Shown here: positions 5,638 to 20,157 of the stretch, piece after piece | Layout of the letters: the number at the start of each line of letters is the position of its first letter | Position numbering within the stretch: the first letter of the stretch is position 1 | Assembly: GCF_014191255.1 (NCBI RefSeq) | Contig: NZ_JACHWH010000001.1 | Span: 310,001-374,000 of the forward strand | Direction of reading: 5' to 3' | Source: Amycolatopsis bartoniae | GTDB lineage: Bacteria > Actinomycetota > Actinomycetes > Mycobacteriales > Pseudonocardiaceae | Length of the DNA stretch: 64,000 nt | Program-made: the position numbers and the translations under genes | Notes under the pieces: generated by a model | What the model was told of the DNA's origin: nothing | What the model saw: the letters and a program-made list of their open reading frames with translations, nothing else | Database searches by the model: none

Positions 5638-6744
5638 GTGTGGCGAACGAGCCGGTACCCGGTGGACGTGCTGGTGACGCTCGTGCCGATGGTGTTCGTG
5701 CTCGGCGCGACGACCCTCGCCGGGCACTTCCAGCCAGGCAGGGCGCTCGACCTGCCCGGGTACCTGTGGCTCGCCGGCGCCGCGCTGCCGCTGTCGCTGG
5801 TCCGGCGTTTTCCGCTGCCGGTGTTCCTGGTGACCGGCGCGGTGGTGCTGGCCTACTACCGCTCGTCCTATCCGAACGGGCCCGCGCTGCTGTTGCCGAC
5901 GATCGCGTTGTTCACCCTGACGCGGACGCGGGGACTGCTGGTCGCGGGGGTCACCGGTGGGGTCGCGTTGCTCGCCGCGTTCGGCGTGTACTTCGGCACG
6001 GGTGGCGCGTTGACGGCGAACACCCCGGTGGCGCTGCTTGTCGTGTGGCTCGCCGCGGTGCTGGGCATCGGCGCCGCGGCCCGCAACCGGGCGGCGGCGG
6101 TCCGGGCCGCGCGGGAGCGGGCCGCCGAGCACCAGTACCGGATGGCGGAGCGGGAGCGGCTGACGATCGCGCGCGAGGTGCACGACGTCGTGGCGCACAG
6201 CCTGGCGATGATCAATGTGCAGGCCGGGGTCGCGGCGCACGTCGCGGACCGGCGGCCGGAGCAGGCGGTCGAGGCGCTGCTGGCGATCAAGGAGGCGAGC
6301 GCGGCCGCGCTGGCGGACCTGCGGGCCACGGTCGCCGTGCTGCGGTCGGGGCAGGGGCTGGGCCCCGCGCCGAGCCTGGACCGGCTCGACGAGCTGCTGG
6401 ACCACGCCCGCGCGGCCGGCCTGCGGGTGACCGTGCACGGCGAGCCGGGCGAGCTGCCCGCGCCGGTCGACGGGGCCGCGTACCGGATCCTGCAGGAGTC
6501 GCTGACGAACGTGGTCCGCCACGCCGCCGGAGCATCCCAAGTGGACGTCCACTTCGGACGCATCAACGGCTCGTTCACGCTCGCGGTGCGCGACGACGGC
6601 GAGTCTCCGGCGGATCCGTTGCCGGGCAACGGTTTGCGGGGAATGGCCGAACGGGCCGCGGCACTGGGCGGCCGGGTGACCGCGAGCCCGGTCGAGGGTG
6701 GTTTCGAGGTGCGGGCGGAACTGCCCGTCGAGGAGGACCGATGA
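5638..6744 (+). CDS. Sensor histidine kinase, DesK/NarX (HisKA_3) type
   Basis: A 368-residue membrane kinase. Four to five hydrophobic segments occupy about residues 10-150 without a recognisable extracytoplasmic sensor domain; a short coiled linker follows. The HisKA_3 phosphoacceptor box is ERLTIAREVHDVVAHSLAMI (His near residue 182) and the HATPase domain shows ILQESLTNVVRHA (N box) and GNGLRGMAERAAALGG (G box). The GTG start gives MWRTSRYPVDVLVT. The stop overlaps the response regulator start as ATGA, so the pair is cotranslated. The stimulus is unknown; kinases of this layout commonly answer membrane or cell-wall stress, but that is family-level knowledge. A TAGCTT -10 box sits just upstream. 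Confidence 0.92.
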   Translation: MWRTSRYPVDVLVTLVPMVFVLGATTLAGHFQPGRALDLPGYLWLAGAALPLSLVRRFPLPVFLVTGAVVLAYYRSSYPNGPALLLPTIALFTLTRTRGLLVAGVTGGVALLAAFGVYFGTGGALTANTPVALLVVWLAAVLGIGAAARNRAAAVRAARERAAEHQYRMAERERLTIAREVHDVVAHSLAMINVQAGVAAHVADRRPEQAVEALLAIKEASAAALADLRATVAVLRSGQGLGPAPSLDRLDELLDHARAAGLRVTVHGEPGELPAPVDGAAYRILQESLTNVVRHAAGASQVDVHFGRINGSFTLAVRDDGESPADPLPGNGLRGMAERAAALGGRVTASPVEGGFEVRAELPVEEDR

Positions 6745-7406
6745 CGGTACGCGTCGTGCTCGCCGACGACCAGGCGCTGGTGCGGGCGGGTTTCCGGGTG
6801 CTACTGGACACCGAGGACGGTTTCGAGGTGTGCGGCGAAGCGCGCGACGGCGGTGAAGCGGTGGAACTGGCCCGCGCCACTCACCCCGACGTCGTGGTGA
6901 TGGACGTCCGCATGCCGGGCGTGGACGGCCTGGAGGCCACCCGCCGCATCACCGCCGACGAGGACCTCGCGGAGGTGAAGGTCCTGGTGCTGACGACGTT
7001 CGACATCGACGAGTACGTGTACGAGGCACTGCGCGCGGGCGCGAGCGGTTTCCTGCTGAAGGACACCGAACCGGTCGAACTGCTGCGTGCCCTGCGGGTG
7101 GTCGCGGCGGGCGACTCGCTGCTGGCGCCGACCGTCACGCGCCGGCTGATCGCGGAGTTCGTCGGCAGACCCGAAAACCGCCGTGTGGACAACACCGCGG
7201 TCCGGCAGGTCACCGACCGCGAACGCGAGGTGCTGGCACTGGTCGCGGGCGGCCTGTCCAACGACGAGATCGCCGCCCACCTGGTGATCTCCACCGCGAC
7301 GGCCCGCACGCACGTCAGCCGCATCATGACGAAGGTCGGCGCCCGCGACCGAGCCCAGCTGGTGGTGCTGGCCTACGAATCCGGACTGGTCACCCCGGGC
7401 CGGTGA
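6741..7406 (+). CDS. NarL/FixJ-family response regulator
   Basis: A 221-residue regulator cognate to the kinase immediately upstream (ATGA overlap). The receiver domain (1-125) has the acidic pair ADD near residue 9, the phosphoacceptor Asp in DVVVMDVRMPGVDG and the Lys in GFLLKDTEP. The LuxR-type HTH occupies about 150-215 with LTDREREVLAL-like sequence (VTDREREVLALVAGGLSNDEIA). The ATG at 6741 is chosen because it restores the standard MTVRVVLADDQALVRAGF start; a much longer open frame continues upstream but only as a shadow of the kinase gene. Followed at once by a strong hairpin. Confidence 0.95.
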   Translation: MTVRVVLADDQALVRAGFRVLLDTEDGFEVCGEARDGGEAVELARATHPDVVVMDVRMPGVDGLEATRRITADEDLAEVKVLVLTTFDIDEYVYEALRAGASGFLLKDTEPVELLRALRVVAAGDSLLAPTVTRRLIAEFVGRPENRRVDNTAVRQVTDREREVLALVAGGLSNDEIAAHLVISTATARTHVSRIMTKVGARDRAQLVVLAYESGLVTPGR

Positions 7407-7427: not shown

Positions 7428-8624
7428 TCACGAGTTGCGCTGCGTCGGCGGCGCGTGGTCGACCTGGTCCTGCAGGAGTGAGGTGAACAGCTGCTGCGCG
7501 GCCGCCCGGTCGGGCCCGAACGTCTCGACGATGATCACCCGGTCGTAGAGCACGTAGACCGCGCGGAAGACGCCCTGCGACGACTTGGCCGAGGTGCTCA
7601 GCACCGGCACGCCCTGCATCGACAGGTCACGGTTGGCCGACAGGCCGCCCCGCCGCTGGTTGTCGGCGTACTCGTTCGCGACCGTGGTGGCGGCCGACGG
7701 GCTGGGCAGCGTGAGCGAGAACAGGCCGATCGTCGACCCGCCCTGCGTCGAGGTGTTCAGCCGGCCGCTGGTCATGCCGCCCTGCTGCAGCGCGGCGATG
7801 ACCGAGTCCGGCAGGAGCTTGTTGGACTGCAGGGTGGCGAGGGTGAAGTCCCCGCCACCGGCGCGCGGCGTGCCGGGCGCGGTGATCAACGCGTCGGCGT
7901 CGCTGCTCGGCTCCGGCTTGGTGGGCGGCGGTTCCGGCAGCGGCTTGCTCGTGGCGGCGGGCGGCTGCTGGCCCGGGTTCGCCGCCTGCACGTCCGTGCT
8001 GTTGTCGCGGCCGAAGAGCAGCCAGACGGCCACCCCGAGCCCGATCACCACGATCGCGGCGATGGCGGAGAACAGGATCTTCCGCCCGTTGCCCTGGGAC
8101 TTCTGCTTCTGTTCGCCCTGCTCCGGGCCCTGGGACACCCACTCGTAGCCACCCTGCGGCGCGATCGGCGGCAGGTCACCGCCGCCCCACGGCGGGGTCG
8201 AGTCGCTCTGCGCGGCGTGCCACGCGGGGGGTTGCGCGAACCCGGCGGGCGGGGACTGCATGCCGGGGCCCTGCGGGTACTGGCCCTGCCACGGCTGCAC
8301 CGCCTGCGTCCGCTCCGCGGAACTGTCGTAGGAGGGCACGACCTGCGTGGCCTCGGAGTTCTGCGGCACCGGCCCGGAGGGCTGCGCGTTCTGCTGCGGG
8401 GGCTGGTTCTGCTGGGCGGGCGGCTGCGGTACGCCGCTCGGCGGCGACACCGGCTCGATGATCTGGGTGGAGTCGCCCTGGCCCGGGGTAGCCGGGGCTT
8501 CGGGAGGTGCTGCGGTGACCGCGGCGGAGAGGATCTGGTCGCGCCGCTGGCGGTAGGCGTCGGCCGAAAGTGAGCCGTTCGCCAGGTCTTCGTCGAGCTT
8601 GCGCAGCTCTTCCTGCCAGGTCAC
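7428..8624 (-). CDS. Single-pass membrane protein with WQEEL N-terminal hairpin and TQ-motif linker (paralogue A)
   Basis: A 398-residue protein of unknown function. Residues 1-35 (TWQEELRKLDEDLANGSLSA...) form a SHOCT-like helical hairpin; 36-180 is a Pro/Gln-rich cytoplasmic linker holding three similar Thr-Gln sites (STQIIEP, ATQVVP, RTQAVQP); a transmembrane helix lies at about 183-205 (ILFSAIAAIVVIGLGVAVWLLFG); the remainder is an extracytoplasmic domain of about 150 residues after a Pro-rich stalk. The type II topology (N-terminus in) follows from the charged QKQKSQGNGRK before the helix. A paralogue with the same order of parts lies at 15624-16700, and the glycan locus sits between them. 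GTG start, preceded by a GAAGGGGG ribosome site. Thr-Gln sites could be Ser/Thr-kinase targets; that is inference. Confidence 0.8.
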   Translation of the reverse strand: MTWQEELRKLDEDLANGSLSADAYRQRRDQILSAAVTAAPPEAPATPGQGDSTQIIEPVSPPSGVPQPPAQQNQPPQQNAQPSGPVPQNSEATQVVPSYDSSAERTQAVQPWQGQYPQGPGMQSPPAGFAQPPAWHAAQSDSTPPWGGGDLPPIAPQGGYEWVSQGPEQGEQKQKSQGNGRKILFSAIAAIVVIGLGVAVWLLFGRDNSTDVQAANPGQQPPAATSKPLPEPPPTKPEPSSDADALITAPGTPRAGGGDFTLATLQSNKLLPDSVIAALQQGGMTSGRLNTSTQGGSTIGLFSLTLPSPSAATTVANEYADNQRRGGLSANRDLSMQGVPVLSTSAKSSQGVFRAVYVLYDRVIIVETFGPDRAAAQQLFTSLLQDQVDHAPPTQRNS

Positions 8625-8734
8625 CCCGGCACCCCCTTCGGGATCGGTGTTGCGAATGCTTGCGGCTGGAAACCGGAACGTAGCCGCACCCGACTACGGC
8701 ACATTGTGCACCCCGGCCTCGGGCCCGTTGGCCC

Positions 8735-10051
8735 CTACCTGGGGTGACTCGCCAGTACAGCGGCGATCTGGTCCACCACGGAATCCCGCAACAGTGGACT
8801 CGCTCCGCCGACCGCATTCCGTTCCGCGAGTTCCACCACGATCACGTCTCGATCGGCCAACAATTGCAGTGCGTTGGCGGTCGTGTTCTGCGCCATCGTC
8901 TCCGCGTGCACGATCGTCAGGTTCTGGAAACCCGCGGCCAGGAACGGACTCGCGAACTGGGTGAACGAGTCCGCGATCACCGCGGTGTTCCCGCCGATCA
9001 CGCCCGGCGCGGGAGCGCCACCGCCCTGGTCGAGGTGCAGCGGCGCGCGGAAGTCGCTCGCCACGTAGCGGGCCCGGTCGGTCTTGCCGTCCGGGGCGAG
9101 GGTGTAGGTCTGCAGCTGGCGGTACTCGGACCGGCCCAGCAGCGTCGGCAGGTCGGCGGGCCAGGCGTTGACCTGGCGCTTGCCGACGGACCAGGTCGAC
9201 GTGACGCCCGGCTGCAGCCGCTCGGCCAGCGCGTACGTCATCGTGAGCCCACCCTCGTACGTCCAGTGCGTGTCGTACGCGTCGTAGAGCGGGTGCCCGA
9301 CCCGTGTCGCGGTCGCCGTGAGGCTGGGCCGCACGTCGATGTCGCCGAGCTTCGTCGTCGCGTTCTGCCAGAACTCGGCGGACGCTGCGCGGGCGCAGTC
9401 CTTGCCCGCGTAGGTGGCGGGAAGGTGCTCCGGCGCGGCGGTGGACTTGTCGGGCGCGATCACCAACTCGAACCGGCGCCCGGACGCCTCGACCGCCGCC
9501 CGCAGGCGTTGGAAGGTCTCGACCACCTGGTCCGGCTGGAGCGTCGGGACGCACTTGTTGCTCATGTCGGCGCCCAGGTACAGCCAGTTGTCAGAGCCGT
9601 AGATGAGCGGCGGGTAACCCCCGGCGGGCAACGTGTCCTTCGGCGCCGCCGGGCCCTTCGGCTCCAGCCCGATCGGGCCGCCGGTGTCGGTCTGGCCGGT
9701 CTGGGGCGGGTCGCCGAAGACACCGGAGCTGACCGCGCCCGCGGCGTCGACGCCGGCCTTGCGCAGCGGCAGGTGGTCGGTGGCCCAGCCGGAGAACGAG
9801 GTGAAGAAGTCCCAACCGTCGCCCGGCGACGGGAACGCGTGCAGCGCCCGGTTCTCGAACGCCGTCGGCCGCACGCCCAGCACGAAGGCCAGCGCCGGGG
9901 TCAGGAAGAAGATCAGCGCGCAGGTCAGCGCGCTGCGCTGGCGCCTGCTGTGCCGGGGCCGGTAGAGGCTGTGCTCCCGCGGTAGCCACGCCTCGGGAGT
10001 GGGTGGCAGTCCGCCCGGCGGCTGTTGCGGGGCTCCGGGACCGGCCTTCAT
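8735..10051 (-). CDS. AlgX/AlgJ-like SGNH-fold protein, probable polysaccharide O-acetylation factor
   Basis: A 438-residue membrane-anchored protein. After a Pro-rich cytoplasmic start, a transmembrane helix lies at about 41-60 (LTCALIFFLTPALAFVLG), then an extracytoplasmic domain. The family signature is clear: FENRALHAFP, SDNWLYLG, an Asp-His pair in DAYDTHWTYEG (Asp260, His262), and a nucleophile-like Ser in VIADSFTQF. These are the DxH and GDSx-type elements of AlgX/AlgJ/DltD-like acetyltransferases that pass acetyl groups to exported polysaccharide. It is divergent from the multidomain glycosyltransferase, with both -10 boxes in the 59-nt gap, and the membrane acyltransferases that could supply acetyl groups lie just beyond. 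Substrate is not known. Confidence 0.85.
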   Translation of the reverse strand: MKAGPGAPQQPPGGLPPTPEAWLPREHSLYRPRHSRRQRSALTCALIFFLTPALAFVLGVRPTAFENRALHAFPSPGDGWDFFTSFSGWATDHLPLRKAGVDAAGAVSSGVFGDPPQTGQTDTGGPIGLEPKGPAAPKDTLPAGGYPPLIYGSDNWLYLGADMSNKCVPTLQPDQVVETFQRLRAAVEASGRRFELVIAPDKSTAAPEHLPATYAGKDCARAASAEFWQNATTKLGDIDVRPSLTATATRVGHPLYDAYDTHWTYEGGLTMTYALAERLQPGVTSTWSVGKRQVNAWPADLPTLLGRSEYRQLQTYTLAPDGKTDRARYVASDFRAPLHLDQGGGAPAPGVIGGNTAVIADSFTQFASPFLAAGFQNLTIVHAETMAQNTTANALQLLADRDVIVVELAERNAVGGASPLLRDSVVDQIAAVLASHPR

Positions 10052-10058
10052 GGTCGGT

Positions 10059-10103
10059 AGGTTACCGAGGGCCGCCCGCCGCCGTGGTCGTTCCCGCTAA
10101 CCT
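10059..10103. promoter_or_regulatory. Back-to-back -10 boxes (TAACCT) of divergent leaderless genes
   Basis: TAACCT on the minus strand (10059-10064) lies 7 nt before the ATG of the SGNH gene, and the identical TAACCT on the plus strand (10098-10103) lies 7 nt before the ATG of the glycosyltransferase gene. Neither gap has a ribosome-binding site. Both transcripts are therefore predicted to be leaderless and to be controlled from the same 60-bp region. Confidence 0.6.
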
Positions 10104-10110
10104 GCTCCCC

Positions 10111-13100
10111 ATGGACGCGGGGAGCACTGGTGAGCGCCTGATCGAGTGGACCGGCGAGCGGTGCGTGCCGTGGACCGACGACCACCAGGTGATCTACGAG
10201 CACTACCACCGGTACGCCCTCGCGCTGCGGTACGTGGCGGGCAAGCGGGTGCTGGATCTCGCCAGTGGCGAGGGCTACGGCGCCGCGTTGCTGGGTGAAG
10301 CGGCCGCCGACGTGGTCGGGCTCGAACTCGACCCGGTCACCGTCGAGCACGCGACCAGGCGCTACGGCTCCAAGGCGCTGCGGTTCCACGTCGGGTCCAT
10401 CGAGGACCCGGAAGCGCTGCCGGACGAAGCACCTTTCGACGTCATCACGTGCTTCGAGGCGATCGAGCACGTCGAGCACCAGGACCTCGTGCTGCGGCTG
10501 GTCCGCAGGCTGCTGGCGCCGGGCGGGATCTTCCTGTGCAGCACGCCGGACATCGAGGTCTACACCCACGACCACGGCAACGAGAACCCGTTCCACGTGC
10601 ACGAGCTCGACGAGCAGGGCTTCCGCGACCTGCTCGCGGGCACCTTCGAGCACGTCGAGATGCTCCGGCAGAACGTGGCGGTCGGTTCGCTGATCGTCGG
10701 GGACGGGACGGGCGCCGACCTGCACACGCTGCACCAGGACTCGCCGGACGACTGGCGGGTGCGCCCCGGTGTGCCGCACACGTACTTCGTCGCGGTCGCC
10801 TCGGACGAGCCCGTCGAGGTGCCGGGCACGTCCGTGCTCACCGACGAGAAGCTCACCCTCATCGCCAAGGCGCTCGCCGACCGGGCGGCCGCCGCCGCGG
10901 AAGCCGGGCGGTCCGCCGAGGACGCGCAGCGGCTCCAGGACGAGCTCGCCGCGGAGTCGGCGCGAGCCGAGCGCCTGACGGCTGAGCTGGGCGGCGTGGT
11001 GCGGGAGCGCGACAGCGCGCAGGAGCAGGTGCGGAAAGTGCGGCGCGCGCAGACGTCGCTCGCCGCGGAGCTGGACCGCGAGCGGCGCAAGGCCGAGCAC
11101 CAGCAGGCCAGGCTCACCTGGCTGGACGAGACCAATGCCAGGCTCCGGCGGACGGTGCACGAGCTGGCCACCGAAAACGCGACCCTGCACGCCGAAGTCT
11201 CCGCCATGGGGCAGCGGCTCATCAGCCGCTATCGCGCCTCCATCGAGCGGTACGCGCCCCGCGGCACCCGCCGCCGGGACGTCTACGAGCGGGCGCTGGG
11301 CCGTCCTGCCGGGGTGCTGCCGGACGCCGCGCCGGAGCTCGGCCCGGTGGGTGTCACCACGAGCGAGCAGCCCATCGTCAGCGTGGTCATCCCCGTCTAC
11401 GGGCACTGGGACTACACCCGCCGTTGCCTCGAGTCGATCGAGGTCTCCCGGCCGCGCACGCCGTTCGAGGTGATCGTCGTGGACGACGCCTCCGTCGACG
11501 ACTCGGCCGACCGGGTCGCCGCGTGTCCCGGCGTCCGGCTGGTGCGGGCTCCCCGCAACCTGGGCTTCATCGGGGCGTGCAACCTCGGCGCCGAGCAGGC
11601 GCGGGGCGAGCTCGTCATGTTCCTGAACAACGACACCGAGGTCCGGGCGGGCTGGCTGGACGAGCTGGTGACCGTCGTGGAGGACCGCGCGGACGTCGGT
11701 CTGGTGGGCAGCAAGCTGGTCTACCCGGACGGCCGGGTGCAGGAGAGCGGCGGCATCGTCTGGGCGGACGGGACCGGCTGGAACTACGGCCGCAACGAGC
11801 CGGAGCGGCCGTGGTTCGAAACGGTCCGCGACGTCGACTACTGCTCCGGTGCGGCGCTGCTCGTCCGGCGCGACCTGTTCGAGCGCATCGGCGGCTTCGA
11901 CCAGCGGTACGCGCCGGCGTACTACGAGGACACCGACCTGGCGTTCGCGGTGCGGGCGGCGGGGTACCGCACGGTCGTGCAGCCGGCGTCGGTCGTGGTG
12001 CACCACGAGGGCGTCTCGAACGGCACGGACCTCTCCTCCGGCGTCAAGCGGCACCAGGAGCTCAACCGGCAGGTCTTCGTCGACAAGTGGGCCGAACAGC
12101 TCGCGGCGCACCTGCCCGAGGCCAGCCCGCGCAACGTGTGGCTTGGCCGTCAGCGCACCGCCGCAGGGCACGGGGGCGGGATCGTGCTGGTCGCGGACTA
12201 CCAGGTGCCGCGCCCGGACGAGGACTCCGGTTCGGTGCGGATGAGCAGGCTGCTGTGCCAGCTCGCGGAGCTCGGCGAGCGCGTGGTGTTCTTCCCGATG
12301 AACCACGCGCTGCCCGAGCGTTACGTGCGGCCGCTGCACCTGGAGGGCGTCACCGTGGTCGCGGGCGAGGAGCACCAGCAGGCGTTCCTGCGGGAGGCGG
12401 GGCCCGCGCTGAGCGTGGCCGTGCTGTCGCGCCCCCAGGTCGCCTGGCAGCTGCTGGAGCAGATCCGCTCGGTGTCCCCGCACTGCCGCATCGCCTACGA
12501 CACGGTCGACCTGCACTTCCTCCGGCTCGGGCGGCAGGCCGAGCTGGCGGAGCGGGAAGGCCGCGACGACGAGGCGACCTCGTTGCGGCAGCGGGTCACG
12601 GCACTGCGCGAGATGGAGCTCGGCCTGGTCCGCAGCACCGACGTCACGCTCGTGGTGTCCGAAGTGGAGCGCGAACTGCTCCACCGGCTGGTGCCGGACG
12701 CGAACGTCACCGTGCTGTCCAATGTGCACGTCGTGGACGAGACCGAAGCCGTGCCGGAGGACCGGTCCGGGGTGCTTTTCGTCGGCAGCTTCGACCACAC
12801 GCCCAACCGGGACGCGGCCACCTGGCTGGCGCAGGAGATCATGCCGCTGGTGCGGAGGTCCCGGCCGGACGCGGTGGCGCACGTCGTCGGCAGCAACCCG
12901 CCGCCCGAGATCCTCGCGCTGGCTTCGGAAGGCGTGGTCGTGCACGGCTGGGTGCCGGAGCTCGCCCCGCACTACCGGGAGGCGCGGGTCGTGGTGGCGC
13001 CGCTGCGTTACGGCGCCGGGGTGAAGGGCAAGGTCGGCGAGGCGCTGGCCTGCGGTGTCCCCGTGGTCGCGACGCCGGTGGCCGCGGAGGGGATGCACCT

Positions 13101-13278
13101 CGAACACGGCGAGAGCGTGCTGATCGGGGAGACCGCGCGGGAGCTGGCGGACCACATCCTGACGCTGCTGGGCGAGGACAAGACCTGGCAGGAGCTCTCC
13201 GAGCGCGGCAAGGTGGCGGTGGAGCTCCAGTTCGGACCGGACGTCGCGAAGCGGGCACTCCAGTCGATCCTGAGGTGA
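10111..13278 (+). CDS. Methyltransferase-coiled coil-GT2-GT4 fusion, surface glycan synthesis
   Basis: A 1055-residue soluble four-part protein. Residues 1-225: SAM methyltransferase (VLDLASGEGYGAALL; ITCFEAIEHVEH). About 250-370: heptad-rich coiled coil. About 422-665: GT2 glycosyltransferase (VSVVIPVYGHWDYT, VIVVDDASVDDS, FLNNDTEVRAGW, a late YYEDTDLAFAVRAAG). About 690-1055: GT4/GT1-type glycosyltransferase, with a GVKGKVGEALACGVPVVAT acceptor motif. The ATG at 10111 is supported by a TAACCT -10 box 7 nt upstream; the open frame extends 36 codons further but into the promoter. Such fusions assemble or cap polysaccharide chains on the cytoplasmic side; a terminal methyl cap set by the first domain would be a natural role, which is inference. 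Neighbours are O-acylation genes. Confidence 0.9.
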   Translation: MDAGSTGERLIEWTGERCVPWTDDHQVIYEHYHRYALALRYVAGKRVLDLASGEGYGAALLGEAAADVVGLELDPVTVEHATRRYGSKALRFHVGSIEDPEALPDEAPFDVITCFEAIEHVEHQDLVLRLVRRLLAPGGIFLCSTPDIEVYTHDHGNENPFHVHELDEQGFRDLLAGTFEHVEMLRQNVAVGSLIVGDGTGADLHTLHQDSPDDWRVRPGVPHTYFVAVASDEPVEVPGTSVLTDEKLTLIAKALADRAAAAAEAGRSAEDAQRLQDELAAESARAERLTAELGGVVRERDSAQEQVRKVRRAQTSLAAELDRERRKAEHQQARLTWLDETNARLRRTVHELATENATLHAEVSAMGQRLISRYRASIERYAPRGTRRRDVYERALGRPAGVLPDAAPELGPVGVTTSEQPIVSVVIPVYGHWDYTRRCLESIEVSRPRTPFEVIVVDDASVDDSADRVAACPGVRLVRAPRNLGFIGACNLGAEQARGELVMFLNNDTEVRAGWLDELVTVVEDRADVGLVGSKLVYPDGRVQESGGIVWADGTGWNYGRNEPERPWFETVRDVDYCSGAALLVRRDLFERIGGFDQRYAPAYYEDTDLAFAVRAAGYRTVVQPASVVVHHEGVSNGTDLSSGVKRHQELNRQVFVDKWAEQLAAHLPEASPRNVWLGRQRTAAGHGGGIVLVADYQVPRPDEDSGSVRMSRLLCQLAELGERVVFFPMNHALPERYVRPLHLEGVTVVAGEEHQQAFLREAGPALSVAVLSRPQVAWQLLEQIRSVSPHCRIAYDTVDLHFLRLGRQAELAEREGRDDEATSLRQRVTALREMELGLVRSTDVTLVVSEVERELLHRLVPDANVTVLSNVHVVDETEAVPEDRSGVLFVGSFDHTPNRDAATWLAQEIMPLVRRSRPDAVAHVVGSNPPPEILALASEGVVVHGWVPELAPHYREARVVVAPLRYGAGVKGKVGEALACGVPVVATPVAAEGMHLEHGESVLIGETARELADHILTLLGEDKTWQELSERGKVAVELQFGPDVAKRALQSILR

Positions 13279-13316
13279 ATTCTCAACGCTGTTCCCCCCT
13301 ATCCGGTGACGTAATC

Positions 13317-13328
13317 CGTTAGCATCAG
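13317..13328 (+). promoter_or_regulatory. Promoter box of acyltransferase 1 (shared TCCGTTAGCATC)
   Basis: TAGCAT at 13320-13325 ends 8 nt before the ATG at 13334, with no ribosome site between, so the transcript is probably leaderless. The flanking bases spell TCCGTTAGCATC (13315-13326 region), which recurs identically in front of the second acyltransferase, as expected if the gene was duplicated with its promoter. Confidence 0.5.
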
Positions 13329-13333
13329 CGGCC

Positions 13334-14461
13334 ATGCGAGCCGTGAGCAAGACCTACGCCGATCCCAACATCGGGTTCGCGTGGCTGAGAACGATCGGCG
13401 CGCTCATCGTCGTCATCGATCACTGCTCGCCGCTGCTCCACCCGGAACGGCTCACGATCTTCCCCGCGTCGTGGGGGGCTTCGCCGGGTTACGTGGCGCT
13501 CATGGGTTTCTTCGCCATGAGCGGCTACCAGATCCAGGACAGCTGGGCGCGCGACCCGTCGTGGTGGCGGTTCAGCGCCCGCCGGCTGCTGCGCATCCTG
13601 CCGCCGGTGGTGCTGGTGGTCGCGGTCACCGCGCTCGTCATCGGTCCACTCGTGACCAGCTGGCCGCAGGCCGACTACTGGGCCTCCGCGCAGACGTGGC
13701 GCTACCTGGTGGGCACCACCCTGCTTTTCCTGCTGCAGCACCGGTTGCCCGGCGTGTTCGACTCGAACCCGTACCCGTGGTCGGCCAACGGTGCACTGTG
13801 GACGCTGCCGATGGAGATGCTCGGCTACGTGATCGTGCTCGTCGTCGGACTGGTCATCGCGCTCGGCGTCTCGCGGCTGTTCCTGTTCGCGGTGCTGGCG
13901 GTCATGGTCTTCGCCGACAGCCAGACGCTGGCCACCTTCGGCGACCACGGCCGCGGTGGCTCGCTGCTGGACGTGCCGGTGGGATCGACGATCGCCTTCC
14001 TGGTGCCGTTCGTGCTCGGCGTCATCCTGCACACCTACCGGGACCGGATCCCGTTCCGGCCGGTCGCCGCGATCGCGTTGCTGGCGGTGTGGGTGGCGCT
14101 GAACCACACGCCGGTGGGCCGGTATGCGCTGGTCGTCGCGGCGTCGTACGGGGCGATCACCTGGGCCCGCCACTGGCCGACGCGGCTCGAGAAGGCGGGG
14201 GACTGGGTCTACGGCAGCTACGGCACCTACATCTGGGCGTTCCCGATCCAGCAGCTGCTGATCATGGCCGGGGTGCGGAACGTGGCACTGCTCGTGGCGC
14301 TCGCCGTGCCGCTGGCCTTCGCGGCGGGTCAGCTGTCGTGGCGGTACGTGGAGAAGCCGACGCAGCGCCTGCGACGGCACCTGCGGCGTCCGGCGCCGCG
14401 CCCGGTTCTGCCGGTTCCGCCCCGGCCGGCGCCGAGGCCGATGGCGCGTGCGGTCCGGTGA
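13334..14461 (+). CDS. Membrane O-acyltransferase, acyltransferase-3 family (copy 1)
   Basis: A 375-residue integral membrane protein with about ten hydrophobic segments, of the OafA/OatA acyltransferase-3 family. The catalytic Arg-x10-His pattern is present in the first helix (WLRTIGALIVVIDHC), followed by FFAMSGYQIQ and a conserved SWWRFSARRLLRILPP loop. There is no fused SGNH domain; that partner function could come from the AlgX-like protein encoded 3 kb away. The C-terminal tail (about 40 residues) is Arg/Pro-rich and cytoplasmic. It is about half-identical by eye to the next gene, so the two arose by tandem duplication. Likely transfers acetyl or another short acyl group across the membrane to surface glycan; acceptor unknown. 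Confidence 0.88.
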   Translation: MRAVSKTYADPNIGFAWLRTIGALIVVIDHCSPLLHPERLTIFPASWGASPGYVALMGFFAMSGYQIQDSWARDPSWWRFSARRLLRILPPVVLVVAVTALVIGPLVTSWPQADYWASAQTWRYLVGTTLLFLLQHRLPGVFDSNPYPWSANGALWTLPMEMLGYVIVLVVGLVIALGVSRLFLFAVLAVMVFADSQTLATFGDHGRGGSLLDVPVGSTIAFLVPFVLGVILHTYRDRIPFRPVAAIALLAVWVALNHTPVGRYALVVAASYGAITWARHWPTRLEKAGDWVYGSYGTYIWAFPIQQLLIMAGVRNVALLVALAVPLAFAAGQLSWRYVEKPTQRLRRHLRRPAPRPVLPVPPRPAPRPMARAVR

Positions 14462-14518
14462 CGGTGGGGTCTGTGACGTCGCCGATTCGCTGAACCGCAC
14501 CGAAAGGGGTTGCCGCTC

Positions 14519-14530
14519 CGTTAGCATCGG
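14519..14530 (+). promoter_or_regulatory. Promoter box of acyltransferase 2 (shared TCCGTTAGCATC)
   Basis: TAGCAT at 14522-14527 lies 9 nt before the ATG at 14537 and is embedded in the same TCCGTTAGCATC 12-mer seen before acyltransferase 1. It shows that copy 2 has its own start site and is not merely the second gene of an operon. Confidence 0.5.
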
Positions 14531-14536
14531 TTGGCG

Positions 14537-15682
14537 ATGCTCAACTCCTGCACGAAGGTCCATGCCAATCCGCACGTCGGTTTCGCCTGGCTGCGCACGG
14601 TCGGCGCGCTGCTGATAGTCCTGGACCACTGCTGGGCGTTGCTGTTCTCGGACCGCTCCACCATCCTCCCGCCGTCCTGGCACGTGGCGCCCGGTTACGT
14701 CGCGCTCATGGGTCTGTTCGCCATGAGTGGGTACCAGATCCAGCACAGCTGGTCGCGTGACCCGTCGTGGTGGCGCTTCGCCGCCCGCCGGCTGCTGCGG
14801 ATCCTGCCGCCGCTGGCGCTCGTGGTCTCGGTGACCGTGCTCGTCGTCGGGCCGTTGGTCACCGTCTGGCCGCAGGCCGACTACTGGACCTCGGCCCAGA
14901 CCTGGCGGTACCTCGTGGGCACCTGCCTCGTCATGCTGCTGCAGCACCGGCTGCCGGGGGTGTTCGACTCGCTGCCGTACCCGTACTCGGCGAACGGTTC
15001 ACTGTGGACACTGCCGATGGAGCTGCTGGGCTACGGCCTCGTGCTGGTGGTCGGGGTGCTGGTCGCGCTCGGCGCGTCGCGGCTGGTGCTGCTCCTGCTG
15101 CTGGCGGCGATGGTCTTCGCCGACGTGGTGCTGGGGGCGAGCTTCGAGTCGCAGGGTGAGGTGTCGGTGCTGAACATCCCGCTCGGGTCGACGGTGTCGT
15201 TCCTCGTGCCGTTCGTGCTCGGCATGGTGTTGCACGCCTTCCGCCACCGGATCCCGTTCCGGCCGTCGGTCGCGGCGGTCCTGTTCGTGGCGTGGGTGGC
15301 CGTGTGCCGGACGGAGTGGAACCGTTACGTGCTGCCGCTGATGGCCGCCTACGGGGCGGTGACGCTGGCGCGCCACTGGCCGCAACGGCTCGGGGGCGTG
15401 GGGCCGTTCGTGCTCGGCAGCTACGGCATCTCGATCTGGGGCTTCCTGGTCCAGCAGCTGATCATCCTGGCCGGCGTCCGCGACCCGTGGGTGCTCGCGG
15501 TCCTGTCGCTGCCCGCCGCGTACCTCGCGGGGCAGCTGTCGTGGCGGTTCGTCGAGGAACCCACGCTGCGGCTGCGCCGGTACCTCAAGCCGCGGCGGGC
15601 CGCGGTGCGCGCGGAACCGGTGGTCAGCTCGGTGGCAGAGCCGCTCGCAGTTCCGATCGCTCCTGGTCGAGATGTTGCCTGA
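14537..15682 (+). CDS. Membrane O-acyltransferase, acyltransferase-3 family (copy 2)
   Basis: A 381-residue paralogue of the preceding gene. It keeps the Arg-x10-His motif (WLRTVGALLIVLDHC), the FAMSGYQIQ helix, the WWRFAARRLLRILPP loop and the DYWTSAQTWRYLVGT segment almost unchanged, while periplasmic loops and the C-terminal tail differ (AVRAEPVVSSV...). That pattern suggests the same catalysis with a different acceptor or position. The ATG at 14537 is preferred over the in-frame TTG two codons upstream because it fits the -10 spacing and aligns with copy 1. Its last 59 bases overlap the convergent paralogue-B gene, a long tail-to-tail overlap. Confidence 0.87.
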   Translation: MLNSCTKVHANPHVGFAWLRTVGALLIVLDHCWALLFSDRSTILPPSWHVAPGYVALMGLFAMSGYQIQHSWSRDPSWWRFAARRLLRILPPLALVVSVTVLVVGPLVTVWPQADYWTSAQTWRYLVGTCLVMLLQHRLPGVFDSLPYPYSANGSLWTLPMELLGYGLVLVVGVLVALGASRLVLLLLLAAMVFADVVLGASFESQGEVSVLNIPLGSTVSFLVPFVLGMVLHAFRHRIPFRPSVAAVLFVAWVAVCRTEWNRYVLPLMAAYGAVTLARHWPQRLGGVGPFVLGSYGISIWGFLVQQLIILAGVRDPWVLAVLSLPAAYLAGQLSWRFVEEPTLRLRRYLKPRRAAVRAEPVVSSVAEPLAVPIAPGRDVA

Positions 15683-16700
15683 GCTGGTCCTCGGCGCGCC
15701 CGGCGGGCTGTGACACCCACAACACCACCGACACGTCACCCGAGGAGTACCAGGTGCCGTTCATGGTCCGCCCGGACTTGGTCCCGGTCGCGACGGACGG
15801 GTCGGCGGGCAGCACGGTGTACCCGCTCGACAGCGCGCCGCCCCGCATGTAGTTGGTGACGGCCTGCGCCTGGCTCGCGGAGCCCGCGTGGATCACGAGC
15901 AGGAAGTACTGCTCGTCGCCCTCCGAGGAGGCCCGGTAGACGATCTCGCTCACGCCGTTGCGCTTGTAGACGTCGGCGGCCTCGACGGGGTAGAGCCCCA
16001 GCTCAACACCCTTGTCGACGGAGACAGTCGAGTTGTTGGGGTCCGGCGTGCCCGGCAGTGCGGGCACCCGCTGCTCGACCGGTACCGCGGAGGAGGTCTG
16101 CGGCGCGGCGGCGGTCGTGCCGCCCGCGGTGGTGTTGCTCGTCTCGCGGTTGCCGAGGAACCACGTCGCGCCGCCGATCAGGACCAGCACCAGGAACACG
16201 CCCAGGGCCAGGAACAGCCACGTCGGCTTGCGGCGGTCGGGGCGTTCCGGGCGCGTGGGGAGCGGCGGCACCTCGTCGCGCGGCGGGGAGAGCGGGACGA
16301 GGCTCGGCAGCGTGCCGTGCGGGATGGCGGGCGTGATGACCGTCGGGGCCTCGTGGATGGGCGGGTAGCGCATGGAGTCGGTGGGACGGTGGTCGGCGGG
16401 GCTGGGGGCGCTCGTCGGCACGGAGGATTCCAGCAGCGCGGCCGAGCGGCCCTGCGAAGCCGGCGCCGCAGCGGGAGCCGGGGCCGGGGGCGCAGGCGGT
16501 TCCGGCACCGGTTCGGCGGTCGGCCAGGCGGGGACGGCCTCCTGCGCCGCGGGCATCCGCGGCGAGGTGAACGGCGACGGCGCGACCCCACCGGACGCGG
16601 CGGCGAGCAGCTCCTCCCGCTGTTTGCGGTGCTCCCGCAGGCTGATCCGGCCGGCGGCAAGGTCCGCGTCCAGACGGCGCAGCTCTTCCTGCCAACTCAT
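15624..16700 (-). CDS. Single-pass membrane protein with WQEEL N-terminal hairpin (paralogue B)
   Basis: A 358-residue protein with the same plan as the one at 7428-8624: SWQEELRRLDADLAAGRIS helical hairpin (1-35), an Ala/Pro-rich linker with one EAPTVITPAI site (versus three Thr-Gln sites in paralogue A), a transmembrane helix at about 160-182 (TWLFLALGVFLVLVLIGGATW), and an extracytoplasmic domain of about 150 residues beginning PALPGTPDPNNST. Function is unknown. The ATG is preceded by GAGGAG at a good distance and by TAACGT further upstream. The two copies flank the glycan genes at both ends and both point toward lower coordinates. Its 3' end overlaps acyltransferase 2. Confidence 0.8.
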   Translation of the reverse strand: MSWQEELRRLDADLAAGRISLREHRKQREELLAAASGGVAPSPFTSPRMPAAQEAVPAWPTAEPVPEPPAPPAPAPAAAPASQGRSAALLESSVPTSAPSPADHRPTDSMRYPPIHEAPTVITPAIPHGTLPSLVPLSPPRDEVPPLPTRPERPDRRKPTWLFLALGVFLVLVLIGGATWFLGNRETSNTTAGGTTAAAPQTSSAVPVEQRVPALPGTPDPNNSTVSVDKGVELGLYPVEAADVYKRNGVSEIVYRASSEGDEQYFLLVIHAGSASQAQAVTNYMRGGALSSGYTVLPADPSVATGTKSGRTMNGTWYSSGDVSVVLWVSQPAGRAEDQLRQHLDQERSELRAALPPS

Positions 16701-16767: not shown

Positions 16768-17607
16768 TCAGAACAAGGTCAACGGATCCGTGGGGAGCGG
16801 TTCGGGGAGCGGCGCGACCTCGGGAACGCGGGCTCGCACCTCCTCGTGGAAGCGACGTGCGAGGGCCAGCGCCCCGGCGTTGTCGGGGGTGTGGACGAAG
16901 ATCGTCGGGGAGCGGCCCTCCCGCAACCAGCGGACGACCGTGTCGAGCCAGTGCTGCCAGCCCTCGGCCGTGCGCGCGTCGTCGTCGCGGCCGATGTACC
17001 TGACGACCGGGTGCGTGGTGAGTGCGTGCGACCGGCGGGGCAGGCGCGGCTTCTTCTGCCAGGCCTCCTCCTCCGCCGCGCTGGTCGGCGGTGCGCCGAA
17101 CAGGACCGTGGTGTCGAACAGCACCTGTTCGGCGCCGACGGCGTCGAGCGCCTCCGCCAGCCGCGCCGACCAGCGCTCGTCCTCGAAGAACGCGGGGTGG
17201 CGGACCTCGACCGCCTTGCGGCGCTCACGCGGCAGCCTGCGCAGGAAGGCCGCCAGCACGTCGAGGTCCGTCGGCCCGAACGACGCGGGCAGCTGCACCC
17301 ACAGCGCGTGCACCCGTTCCCCGAGCGGTTCGATCGTGTCCAGGAAGGCCCGGACCGGCCCGGCGACGTCGGCGAGCCGGCGTTCGTGCGTGACGAGTTT
17401 CGGCAGCTTGAGCAGGAAGCGGAACTCCGGCGGCGTCTGCTCCACCCACGACGCGACGGTGCTCGCCGCCGGGGTGGCGTAGAACGTCGTGTTGCCCTCC
17501 ACCGCGTTGCAGTGGCTCGCGTACGAGCGGAGGCGTTCGCGCGACGGCAGCTCCCGCCCCGGCCACGCCGGGTGGGTCCACATCGCGCAGCCGACGTGCA
17601 CCTCCAT
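16768..17607 (-). CDS. DUF72 family protein (YecE-like TIM barrel)
   Basis: A 279-residue member of the DUF72 family, a TIM-barrel fold of unknown activity. Recognisable parts are the opening VHVGCAMWTHPAWPG, the NTTFYATP strand, FRFLLKLPKLVTHERR, VEVRHPAFF and the late TIFVHTPDNAGALA. The ATG at 17607 gives the standard N-terminus; 25 further upstream codons are open but reach into the ABC transporter stop region. It lies 19 nt after the ABC exporter gene and probably forms the tail of the TetR-ABC-DUF72 transcript. No signal peptide or membrane segment. Confidence 0.9.
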   Translation of the reverse strand: MEVHVGCAMWTHPAWPGRELPSRERLRSYASHCNAVEGNTTFYATPAASTVASWVEQTPPEFRFLLKLPKLVTHERRLADVAGPVRAFLDTIEPLGERVHALWVQLPASFGPTDLDVLAAFLRRLPRERRKAVEVRHPAFFEDERWSARLAEALDAVGAEQVLFDTTVLFGAPPTSAAEEEAWQKKPRLPRRSHALTTHPVVRYIGRDDDARTAEGWQHWLDTVVRWLREGRSPTIFVHTPDNAGALALARRFHEEVRARVPEVAPLPEPLPTDPLTLF

Positions 17608-17626
17608 GCCCCGGAGGCTACCCACC

Positions 17627-19576
17627 TCAGTCGTCGAGATAAGCCGCCGCCTGGAGGGTGAACAGGTCGGCGTAGTCGCCACCCAGGCGCATCAGCTCCT
17701 CGTGCGTGCCCTGCTCCGCCAGCTTCCCGTGGTCGAGCAGCAGGATCTTCTCCGCCTGCCGGACCGTCGAGAACCGGTGCGAGATGTAGAGCGTCGTCCG
17801 GCCCGCGGCCAGCGCCCGCAGGCGCGCGAACAGGTCGTGCTCCGCCTGCGCGTCCAGCGCCGACGTCGGCTCGTCGAGGATCAGCAGCGGCACGTCCCGC
17901 ATGAACGCCCGCGCCAGCGCCACCTTCTGCCACTCCCCGCCGGACAGGCTCACGCCCTGGTCGAACCACCGGCCCAGCGGGCTGTCGTACCCCTTCGGCA
18001 GCCGCTCGATCCGCTCGGCCGCACCCGCCCGGTGCGCCGCGTTCTCGATCCGCGGGCGGTCCTCCAGCGCGGTCAGCTCGCCGAGCCCGATGTTCTCCGC
18101 CGCCGTGCCCTGGTACGTCACGTAGTCCTGGAACATCGCGCTGATCAGCGTGCGCAGCTGCGTCGGGTCGAACTCGCGGATGTCCACGCCGTCGAGCAGG
18201 ATCCGGCCGCCCGTCGGGTCGTAGAGCCGGCACAGCAGCTTGATCAGCGTCGACTTCCCGGCCCCGTTGCGGCCCACCACGGCGACCGTCTCCCCGGGCC
18301 GGATCTCGAAGCTCACCGCGTCCAGCGCCGGTTCCGCCGCGCCGGGGTAGGTGAACGACACGTCCTGGAACTCGACGTGCCCGCGCACCCGTTCCGGCAG
18401 CGGCCGCGGCCGTTCGGGCGCGGTGATCTCCGGTCGCGTGCCGAGGAACTGGTACAGCGTGTCGAGGTACAGGTTGTTCTCGTACATCCCGGCGAACCCG
18501 GTGAACAGCCCCGACACGGCCGTCTGCACCGCGGCCGCCGCGCTCGTGTACAGCGCCAGGTCGCCGATGGTCAGCCGCCCGTGCACCGCTTCCAGCGCGA
18601 TGTACAGCGCGATGCCCGAAGCCGCCGCAGTCGACAGGAGGCTCCACGCCGAGCCGACGAGGTTGCGCCTCGTCGTCAGCTTGCGCTCGCGCGTGTAGTA
18701 AGCCTTGCCGAGCCGCTGGAACCGGTCCACCAGGTAGTTCCCGAGCCCGAAGAGCTTCGTCTCCTTGGCGTAGGTGTCGGTGGTGACGAGGTTGTTCAGG
18801 TAGTCCATGCGCCGCCGGATCGGAGACACGTACAGCGCCAGCATGAAGGCCCGCGATCCGTACTTCGACTGCGAGACGAACGCGGGAATCGGCGCCACCA
18901 GCGCGACCACGGCGAGCAGCGGGCTCACCGCGACCAGCAGCGCGACCATGCTCGCGAACGTGATCCCGGTGCGCACCAGGCCCAGCGCCGACGTCAGCAT
19001 CGACAGCGGCCGCGACGGCGCCTCCTGCGACGCCTGGCGCAGCAGGTCGTAGGACTCCGAACCCTCGAAGAACGCCAGGTCCAGCGTCGCCGCGTGGGAC
19101 ATCACCTGGTGCCGGATGGTCAGCGTCATGCGCTCCTGCAACAGCTGCTGCGCCACGTTCGTCACGGCCGTGCTCACCGCGGTGAACGTGAGGACCCCCA
19201 GTTCCAGCAGCGTGATCTCCACGATCCGCTGGACCGATCCGTGCCCCTGCACCGCCGCGACCACCGCGTCCAGCAGCAGTTTCGAGATGTACGCGGTGAG
19301 CGTCGGCAGCACCCCACTGACCACTGTGGACAGTGTGATCAGTACCGTCAGCACCCGGCTGGCCTGCCACGTCAGCCGGATCACCTTGGGCAGCCCGCGC
19401 ACCGTGCCGCCCGCGGACGTGCGGAACCGGTGCAGCCGCGCCCGCAGGTCCTTCGGCTCGTCGGCGGGCTTCGGGTCCGGGATCTCGATCGGGCCGGTCA
19501 GCCCGCTGTCCGGCACCGTGCTGCTGACCTGCCGCAACCGCCGTCTCAGCCCGAGCGGCGGGCCTCCTCCGTGCAT
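17627..19576 (-). CDS. ABC exporter, fused transmembrane and ATP-binding domains
   Basis: A 649-residue half-transporter. About 80 N-terminal residues precede a six-helix transmembrane domain (about 85-370); the nucleotide-binding domain fills 400-640 with Walker A VVGRNGAGKSTLIKLL, signature LSGGEWQKVALARAF, Walker [14 protein letters not shown] and the switch His in YISHRFST. It would work as a homodimer, or with an unknown partner. Start ATG overlaps the TetR stop as TGATG, so expression is coupled to the repressor. Together with the palindrome upstream of tetR this is a self-regulated efflux operon; the exported compound is unknown. Confidence 0.93.
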   Translation of the reverse strand: MHGGGPPLGLRRRLRQVSSTVPDSGLTGPIEIPDPKPADEPKDLRARLHRFRTSAGGTVRGLPKVIRLTWQASRVLTVLITLSTVVSGVLPTLTAYISKLLLDAVVAAVQGHGSVQRIVEITLLELGVLTFTAVSTAVTNVAQQLLQERMTLTIRHQVMSHAATLDLAFFEGSESYDLLRQASQEAPSRPLSMLTSALGLVRTGITFASMVALLVAVSPLLAVVALVAPIPAFVSQSKYGSRAFMLALYVSPIRRRMDYLNNLVTTDTYAKETKLFGLGNYLVDRFQRLGKAYYTRERKLTTRRNLVGSAWSLLSTAAASGIALYIALEAVHGRLTIGDLALYTSAAAAVQTAVSGLFTGFAGMYENNLYLDTLYQFLGTRPEITAPERPRPLPERVRGHVEFQDVSFTYPGAAEPALDAVSFEIRPGETVAVVGRNGAGKSTLIKLLCRLYDPTGGRILLDGVDIREFDPTQLRTLISAMFQDYVTYQGTAAENIGLGELTALEDRPRIENAAHRAGAAERIERLPKGYDSPLGRWFDQGVSLSGGEWQKVALARAFMRDVPLLILDEPTSALDAQAEHDLFARLRALAAGRTTLYISHRFSTVRQAEKILLLDHGKLAEQGTHEELMRLGGDYADLFTLQAAAYLDD

Positions 19577-20157
19577 CACTTGGCGGTCACCGCCCCGTGC
19601 AGGAACACGTCGACGAGCTCCTCGACGGCGACGACGTGCTGGTCGCTCCGGGTCCGGCTGAGCAACAGCGACATGAAGAGGCCGCCGAGCTGCTCGGGAG
19701 ACAGCCGTAGCCGATCGCGTTCCGGTTCGAACAGCTCGGCGACCGCCTCGCGCATCCTGGTGAACGACTCCTGCCGGTCGCCCTTCGGACCGCCGGATCG
19801 GCGCCTGCCGGACGCATGCAGGGCTCCCAATATCGCGCCGATGCGTTCCAGGTGCGCCGACAGCACGTCCGCGGCTTCGGTGAGCCGCTTCGCGAGCGGC
19901 TGGTCGAGCGGGATGTCCGCGAGCAGTTCGAGCATCCCGTCCGGGCGCAGCGCCTCGTGCACGCACGCCTCGACCAGCTCGTCCTTGTCCTTGAAGGCGC
20001 GGAAGATCGTGCCTTCGCCGATACCGGCCGCGCGGGCGATCTGGGCCGTGGTCACGGCGGCCCCGTGTTCGACGATGAGCGGCAGCACGGCCTGCACGAT
20101 CATCTTGCGGCGTTCCTCGGGGCTCATCCCCGGAGCGCGTCTCCTCACTTCGGTCAC
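19576..20157 (-). CDS. TetR-family repressor of the adjacent ABC exporter
   Basis: A 193-residue regulator. The HTH lies at about residues 20-65 (MIVQAVLPLIVEHGAAVTTAQIARAAGIGEGTIFRAFKDKDELV) and the rest is the helical ligand-binding domain, variable as usual. Its stop overlaps the exporter start (TGATG). A perfect 20-bp palindrome lies 14 bp upstream of the start codon and is its likely operator, so the protein probably represses itself and the exporter until a ligand, perhaps the exported substrate, binds. Confidence 0.93.
   Translation of the reverse strand: MTEVRRRAPGMSPEERRKMIVQAVLPLIVEHGAAVTTAQIARAAGIGEGTIFRAFKDKDELVEACVHEALRPDGMLELLADIPLDQPLAKRLTEAADVLSAHLERIGAILGALHASGRRRSGGPKGDRQESFTRMREAVAELFEPERDRLRLSPEQLGGLFMSLLLSRTRSDQHVVAVEELVDVFLHGAVTAK

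Follow-up and report, generated by a model that had tools for sequence, protein, structure and literature searches.

A locus of Amycolatopsis bartoniae appears to be an exchangeable one, comparable to the O-antigen and capsule loci, that would make a methylated and O-acylated surface glycan, and its membrane protein memA may act as a transmembrane adaptor matched to the resident gene cassette; we lean modestly towards this reading, which is built on sequence comparison. The locus lies in a window of 64,000 nucleotides, the whole stretch of DNA analysed (assembly GCF_014191255.1, contig NZ_JACHWH010000001.1, positions 310,001-374,000 of the forward strand). It comprises six genes in the order memA (-), an AlgX-like gene (-), a fusion gene for a methyltransferase, a linker and glycosyltransferases of families 2 and 4 (GT2 and GT4) (+), two acyltransferase-3 genes, AT3a (+) and AT3b (+), and memB (-). 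Direct observations are the gene content and synteny, the three cassettes found in one place, the grouping of the memA outer domains by cassette and the fact that several of the loci include AlgX. An earlier note on this DNA had recognised the six genes, and each is indeed an open reading frame (ORF) with the GC content by codon position that is typical of genes; the exchange of cassettes, the cassette-matched outer domain of memA and its repeated linker motif go beyond that note.

Three cassettes at one site

All 19 genus genomes examined carry memB and memA at a single place, together with one of three cassettes (G016, whose contig spans only the cassette stretch, was judged without its outer flanks). 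Type I, the cassette of the window, separates memB from memA in four of the 19 (G000, G008, G015, G016). In type II, found in six (G004, G006, G007, G009, G012, G018), memB and memA form a direct tandem on the same strand, followed by a giant protein of 1231-1318 amino acids (aa) and an AT3 protein; the copies scanned, those of G006, match GT4 and FkbM methyltransferase, and Acyl_transf_3, respectively. In the nine type III genomes (G001, G002, G003, G005, G010, G011, G013, G014, G017) a gene for a protein of ~550 aa separates memB from memA, and memA is followed by genes for a methyltransferase, a GT4 and a GT4-like protein (domains scanned in G001; in G003 and G010 the gene prediction gives another ORF where the first GT4 is expected). 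This ~550-aa protein (L187 8468-10144 and its relatives) has no Pfam match, and our guess would be a GT-C type transferase. Of the common flanks, one has an ABC exporter, genes that look by eye pyruvate-dehydrogenase-like and, in some genomes, a DUF72 gene; the opposite flank has a response regulator, a histidine kinase or both. The earlier note had described a glycan island bracketed by two paralogous membrane proteins; because memB and memA stand in direct tandem in six of the 19 genomes and are split by the window's cassette, the bracketing is a feature of the lineage and does not hold generally.

Between types I and II the flanks are 88% (ABC exporter) and 92% (E1b) identical, and within type I 90% and 93%; those of type III are further off (ABC exporter 83%). 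In the tree of the ABC exporter the type I species are interleaved with those of type II, and in the E1b tree the window and L040 stand beside type III; the two trees disagree, and each is built from one gene and was read with no support values.

The linkage extends through the family Pseudonocardiaceae. Of the 37 family genomes searched, 35 encode a protein like memA (E value up to 0.001), and 24 genomes representing other families in the order gave no match; the 36 memA loci considered here come from those 35 genomes and A. marina. A glycosyltransferase (GT) or methyltransferase gene lies within about 3.7 kb of memA in 35 of the 36 and within 19 bp in 22; the exception, G021, has no cassette. 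The co-occurrence of the flanking paralogues with glycosyltransferases, on which the earlier note had made its proposal depend, is thus found. In G024, AlgX-like, AT3, giant GT, memA and memB-like genes follow one another on one strand, spaced by 4 bases, 6 bases, an overlap and 93 bases.

The outer domain of memA

The memA protein (7428..8624, minus strand, 398 aa) begins with a cytosolic hairpin (residues 1-36), followed by a linker with TQ[IV][IV] motifs at residues 53 and 93, one transmembrane (TM) helix (residues ~183-201) and an outer domain (residues ~205-398). memB (15624..16700, minus strand, 358 aa) is likewise composed of a hairpin, a linker, one TM helix and an outer domain; each has one strong hydrophobic segment, and in both a Pro/Thr/Ser-rich stretch connects the TM helix to the outer domain. 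They had been taken for copies of the same protein, and the common architecture and hairpin bear this out, but the two are distant relatives, with 23% identity (E value 3e-11) that is clearest over the N-terminal hairpin.

The case for a cassette-matched outer domain comes from identity comparisons in 12 genus genomes, with the last 160 residues of memA taken as the outer domain. Between types the hairpins are 78% (I-II), 79% (I-III) and 99% (II-III) identical, and the outer domains average 23%, 22% and 19% in the same order (single pairs 18-28%); a shuffled control gave a mean of 20% and a maximum of 25%, and within types the outer domains average 62-88%. The averages between types are close to chance, and on these figures the outer domains of types I and II may be distant homologues, which fits a weak match to DUF7373 common to both (3e-4 for type I and 1.1e-4 for type II, both below the cut-off). 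When types II and III are compared, the cytosolic linkers can still be aligned as far as the TM helix, from where the likeness is lost. Judged by the ABC exporter, L043 of type I and L178 of type II are the nearest pair across types (91.4%), and their outer domains are 21% identical; within-type pairs at 82-90% in the exporter have outer domains that are 50-92% identical.

A tree of 51 outer domains, with labels assigned from the loci and memA of G024, G026 and G035 left out, contains three branches, all spanning more than one genus: one of fusion-associated sequences (17, support 0.96), one of giant-GT sequences (11, support 1.0) and one of type III sequences (4, support 1.0). Fast evolution of the outer domain with no exchange fits poorly with the pair L043 and L178 and with this cross-genus grouping, and was dropped for that reason; for type III, which branches as a clade by itself among the flank sequences, it may still apply. 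In addition, the nine type III genomes have a fusion at a second site, 59-60% identical over the GT part and with an AT3 gene downstream, and in all nine a match to the fusion-type memA outer domain lies beside it; at six of the nine second sites the gene prediction shows a protein of ~204 aa with a TM helix and an outer domain and no hairpin.

In G020 (locus L046) the memA ORF at 3223-4245 is without the hairpin and has a stop inside the aligned stretch, and beside the fusion lies a match to the C-terminal part only of the AlgX-like protein (G020:C31:7638-8054). This locus looks partly decayed.

The cytosolic half of memA carries a repeated motif: TQ[IV][IVMF] occurs at 47 sites in the linkers of 27 of 29 memA proteins, where shuffled linkers gave 0.12 on average and 2 at most, and an acidic residue stands at position -2 in 44 of the 48 sites of the entire cytosolic part. 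A related TQ motif is present in 1 of 16 memB proteins. Neither SHOCT nor DUF1707 gave a profile match above the cut-off to the hairpins, the DUF1707 matches all falling below it (0.04 for memA, 5.6e-4 for the G021 homologue and 6.8e-4 for the memB-like protein of G024).

AlphaFold models of the outer domains (four sequences each) reached a predicted local distance difference test score (pLDDT) of 67.6 for memA and 81.2 for memB. The top Foldseek matches of both models were the PknH extracellular domain (4esq) and the TiME soluble domain (7cu8, 7cu9); PknH ranked first for memA and second for memB, the top-match probability was 0.96-1.0, and the best E values were 1.1e-3 and 3.2e-4, respectively. 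A sequence-profile search found no PknH-family match at E up to 5. The PknH and TiME domains share only 10-14% identity with those of memA and memB, at a TM-score of at most 0.44, and unlike PknH, memA and memB have no kinase domain. The literature searched gave no role for TiME. TtfA was considered as an analogue of memA and dropped, its C terminus being reported as cytoplasmic in the part of PMC6593404 consulted.

Glycan, acyl-transfer and neighbouring genes

The fusion ORF (10003..13278, plus strand) encodes a single chain in which an N-terminal class I methyltransferase is followed by two GT modules, as in WsaE and O7 ORF6, with the Pfam domains Methyltransf_23, Glycos_transf_2 and Glyco_trans_1_4 at residues 77-197, 460-629 and 923-1056. 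A charged linker of 180 aa follows the methyltransferase; its length is 163-202 aa in 11 fusions including the window's, which shares 85% identity with the A. sacchari fusion. Of nine near-full-length relatives, seven align only from residues 13-43, and those of G008 and G020 already from residue 2-3; translation may actually begin at the ATG at 10111. In G045, a genome of another family, locus L060 (5961-12684) holds a GT2-GT4 protein beside AT3-like genes (named by eye), with no memA match and with a separate methyltransferase relative at 44% identity; this arrangement suggests that the fusion arose later. In G031 (L047 12016-15229), genes between the fusion and AT3 resemble, by eye, a small cassette of WXG100/type VII-associated secreted proteins.

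AT3a (13334..14461, plus strand) and its tandem relative AT3b (14531..15682, plus strand) are acyltransferase-3 membrane proteins with PF01757 scores of 60.9 and 55.2 bits against a cut-off of 31 and are 62% identical to each other. AT3a has R19-x10-H30 and RXXR at 84, and AT3b has R22-x10-H33 and RXXR at 87, matching the motifs described in the consulted part of PMC9558356, namely an R/K-x10-H of TM1 and an RXXR of the first cytoplasmic loop; the R-x10-H pattern is present in 23 of 24 cluster members. AT3a matched an O-acetyltransferase family in Phrogs (4.5e-33), and against the PDB it gave two chance-level matches only. A match to a window AT3 (E up to 1e-20) is found in 17 of the 19 genomes with the fusion. 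The 3' end of memB overlaps AT3b, the two genes being convergent.

The AlgX/AlgJ-like SGNH protein (8735..10051, minus strand, 438 aa, with an N-terminal hydrophobic stretch) matches PF16822 (ALGX) with an E value of 4.3e-12 and 46.7 bits against a cut-off of 26.5, over profile positions 2-133 of 268. D260-x-H262 and S362 are invariant in all 16 aligned sequences, and we take this Asp-x-His and Ser to be the catalytic residues of the AlgX/AlgJ family. A profile search of the PDB found AlgJ (4o8v, 1.5e-11), PatB1 (6.4e-9) and AlgX (0.001), with DTHW aligned to AlgJ and DSF to PatB1, whereas phmmer with the single sequence found no match there.

The earlier note had proposed an acyl relay from the AT3 proteins to the AlgX-like protein, and this proposal stands only in part. 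Across the 37 family genomes, 32 have both AlgX and a single MBOAT protein, four have neither and one has MBOAT only (Fisher p 7.6e-5, ignoring relatedness); that one, G029, is a 74% complete genome. AlgX lies at most 25 kb from MBOAT in 23 of the 32. In two of the other nine, G002 and G009, AlgX and MBOAT are on separate contigs; in the remaining seven AlgX belongs to a fusion or giant-GT locus, beside the fusion in G000, G008, G015, G016, G027 and, as a fragment, G020, and in the giant-GT run in G024. In G000, G008 and G027 the stretch between the ancestral neighbours of AlgX is without AlgX. These positions tie AlgX to the loci, although the fusion can do without AlgX nearby. In the window genome MBOAT is 1.9 Mb away from the AlgX-like gene, and the nearest acyl exporters are the AT3 proteins. 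The idea that these are the sole donor to AlgX was dropped, as AlgX tracks MBOAT; MBOAT rather than the AT3 proteins may supply it, and AT3-to-AlgX transfer is thus merely one option. Both donors are possible, because seven genomes hold AlgX in fusion or giant-GT loci. According to the consulted part of PMC9558356 the AT3 protein WecH can substitute for PatA, working with the SGNH protein PatB.

On one side of the locus lie the DUF72 gene (16768..17682, minus strand; Pfam), syntenic in part of the genus and probably outside the pathway, and the syntenic B-type ABC exporter (ABC_membrane and ABC_tran by Pfam; 17627..19966, minus strand), whose ORF start is probably over-extended. On the other side, also syntenic, are the histidine kinase (5638-6744) and a LuxR-type response regulator ending at 7406 (together 5638..7406, plus strand). 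A gene of the UDP-glucose/GDP-mannose dehydrogenase family lies nearby at 2825-4123, and a relative of it stands near the G020 fusion (L046 10275-11588). msrA, a peptide methionine sulfoxide reductase gene (Pfam checked on the G030 copy), is near memA/memB or the fusion in loci L042, L044-L046, L048, L180, L181, L183, L189-L191 and L208-L210.

The proposed pathway, its alternatives and known systems

We propose the following pathway. The GT2 and GT4 modules of the fusion would extend a lipid-linked chain, and its methyltransferase, kept apart by the long linker, would end it. AT3a and AT3b would move acyl groups through the membrane, and the anchored AlgX-like protein, supplied by them or by the single MBOAT protein, would fix these groups outside. 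The constant cytosolic half of memA might dock on shared cell machinery. The outer domain of memA might recognise the particular glycan or the outward-facing parts of the enzymes that make it, and so be replaced along with the cassette; memB would be a second protein of the same architecture with a less variable outer domain. It is possible, and we put it forward tentatively, that memA is the first member of a family of glycan-matched transmembrane adaptors, with a constant cytosolic half that bears repeated [DE]-x-T-Q-[IV]-[IV] motifs for docking or phosphorylation and an exchangeable outer domain that reads the exported glycan. If so, one conserved machinery, such as the control of polar growth, could be coupled to any one of several interchangeable surface glycans, methylated and acylated, in Pseudonocardiaceae.

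Several observations weigh against the reading of the locus as an exchangeable glycan locus with a matched adaptor. The outer domain of memB, 63-80% identical within types and 33-39% between them, also groups by type in the tree; the sequences indicate that memA and memB differ here in degree, and cassette-linked divergence is not unique to memA. In G034 and G036 a giant-GT-like gene adjoins memA, and yet the outer domains branch apart (both were labelled in the tree by a second, methyltransferase-GT2 gene), and G021 has a fusion-type outer domain with no match to the fusion, AT3, AlgX or MBOAT (L188 9664-11151). Type III is a separate clade among the flank sequences, and the best support for exchange is therefore confined to types I and II. 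The outer-domain fold matches are weak (TM-score 0.36-0.44, root-mean-square deviation about 9-11 A). A scan of the six locus proteins found no initiating transferase, polymerase, flippase or Wzm/Wzt family match; the sole ABC transporter among the window proteins scanned is the B-type fused exporter, which adjoins other cassette types too. AlgX is distant from the fusion in G023, G030, G031 and the type III genomes and absent in G025, and G023 and G025 have a full fusion and no window-AT3 match at E 1e-20. Nine genomes have fusions with a short linker of 62-66 aa. The long linker suggests a coiled coil, with a heptad power in the window of 1.03, against a shuffle mean of 0.59 and maximum of 1.10; all 11 long-linker fusions exceed the shuffle mean and three of them the maximum, in a scan that slightly favoured the real sequence (every position, versus every third for the shuffles).

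Among the alternatives, signalling survives best, although we regard it as rather unlikely. In such a scheme the PknH-like outer domains of memA and memB would sense the cell's own glycan, and a phosphorylated linker would be read by FHA proteins, which would regulate synthesis or polar growth. That each model has the PknH sensor domain as its first or second structural match speaks for it, as do the abundance of the TQ motif over shuffled sequences and the acidic residue at -2. The consulted parts of PMC5448819 and PMC12321487 give ETTS as the GarA phosphorylation motif, the likeness in spacing being our own comparison. Against it, the motifs in the part of PMC5845002 consulted include E-x-x-pT, pT-x-P and P-pT, which the TQ sites do not fit exactly; 15 of 16 memB proteins are without the motif, and no Ser/Thr kinase or FHA domain match was found among the locus proteins scanned. 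A kinase or FHA role for the memA linker is a guess.

It is less probable that memA and memB are protein acceptors, with the glycan placed on the Pro/Thr/Ser-rich outer stalk and the outer domain recognised by matching machinery. The presence of that stretch in both proteins and the possession of its own memA outer domain by each cassette type would suit this, but the six proteins scanned gave no oligosaccharyltransferase or PMT-like family match, and the most variable part is the outer domain, leaving the conserved cytosolic half with no role.

Quite improbable is an insertion hotspot in which glycan cassettes land by chance, with memA and memB as unrelated membrane proteins of a housekeeping kind. 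The common neighbours in the genus, the msrA-like neighbour in many other genomes and G021, with memA and no cassette, would fit a hotspot. However, neutral flanking is given low weight because the memA outer domain groups by cassette; moreover, nine genomes carry the fusion at another site with a fusion-type outer domain next to it, and memA overlaps or nearly abuts the GT or methyltransferase gene in 22 of 36 loci. Similarly doubtful is a cassette tailoring a small secreted glycolipid or natural product instead of a cell-bound polymer: actinomycetes have many pathways of that kind, in which methyltransferases, GTs and AT3 proteins occur, but the 11 window proteins scanned gave no polyketide synthase or nonribosomal peptide synthetase family match, and memA in 35 of 37 family genomes better fits an envelope component.

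The favoured reading, an exchangeable glycan locus, has parallels in known systems. ORF6 of the Klebsiella pneumoniae O7 O-polysaccharide locus has an N-terminal methyltransferase, a central coiled coil, whose length is related to chain length, and two C-terminal GT modules, and WbbB of O12 joins polymerase and terminator in one chain, with terminators other than those of O7 (PMC11231755, in the part consulted). The likeness of the fusion to both is judged on described domain architecture. O7 has, in the same account, a kinase, a carbohydrate-binding module, two GT2 modules and Wzm/Wzt export, whereas the fusion here has GT2 and GT4, and the six locus proteins scanned gave no kinase or carbohydrate-binding match and no recognised Wzm/Wzt. 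WsaE of the S-layer glycan of Geobacillus stearothermophilus is a trifunctional methyltransferase-GT-GT protein from a Gram-positive organism (PMC2943079); its cluster has rml and Wzm/Wzt genes, which had no match among the window proteins scanned, and the part of the description consulted mentions no AT3 or memA-like protein. AlgI-AlgX and PatA-PatB (PMC9558356, in part) resemble the locus in pairing a membrane acyl exporter with a separate SGNH protein; they differ in that the nearest acyl exporters of the window locus are AT3 proteins, with MBOAT 1.9 Mb away.

No published account of the locus was found in the open-licence literature (titles and abstract openings). If the proposal is right, an antibiotic-producing family of actinomycetes carries exchangeable surface-glycan loci akin to the O-antigen and capsule loci known elsewhere, and in one membrane protein the outer domain moves together with the glycan genes and the inner half is kept unchanged. 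The exchange of domain and cassette may thus provide a genetic handle on how a cell recognises its own surface glycan and on what drives envelope diversity, for which phages and predators are plausible candidates. A parallel of this kind is Wzt of ABC-dependent O-antigen export, in which a constant module is joined to a glycan-specific one that varies with the polysaccharide. The variable domain of Wzt is cytosolic and part of the ATPase, whereas that of memA, a protein with no ATPase domain match, would lie outside; what the two have in common is the combination of a constant module with an exchangeable one.

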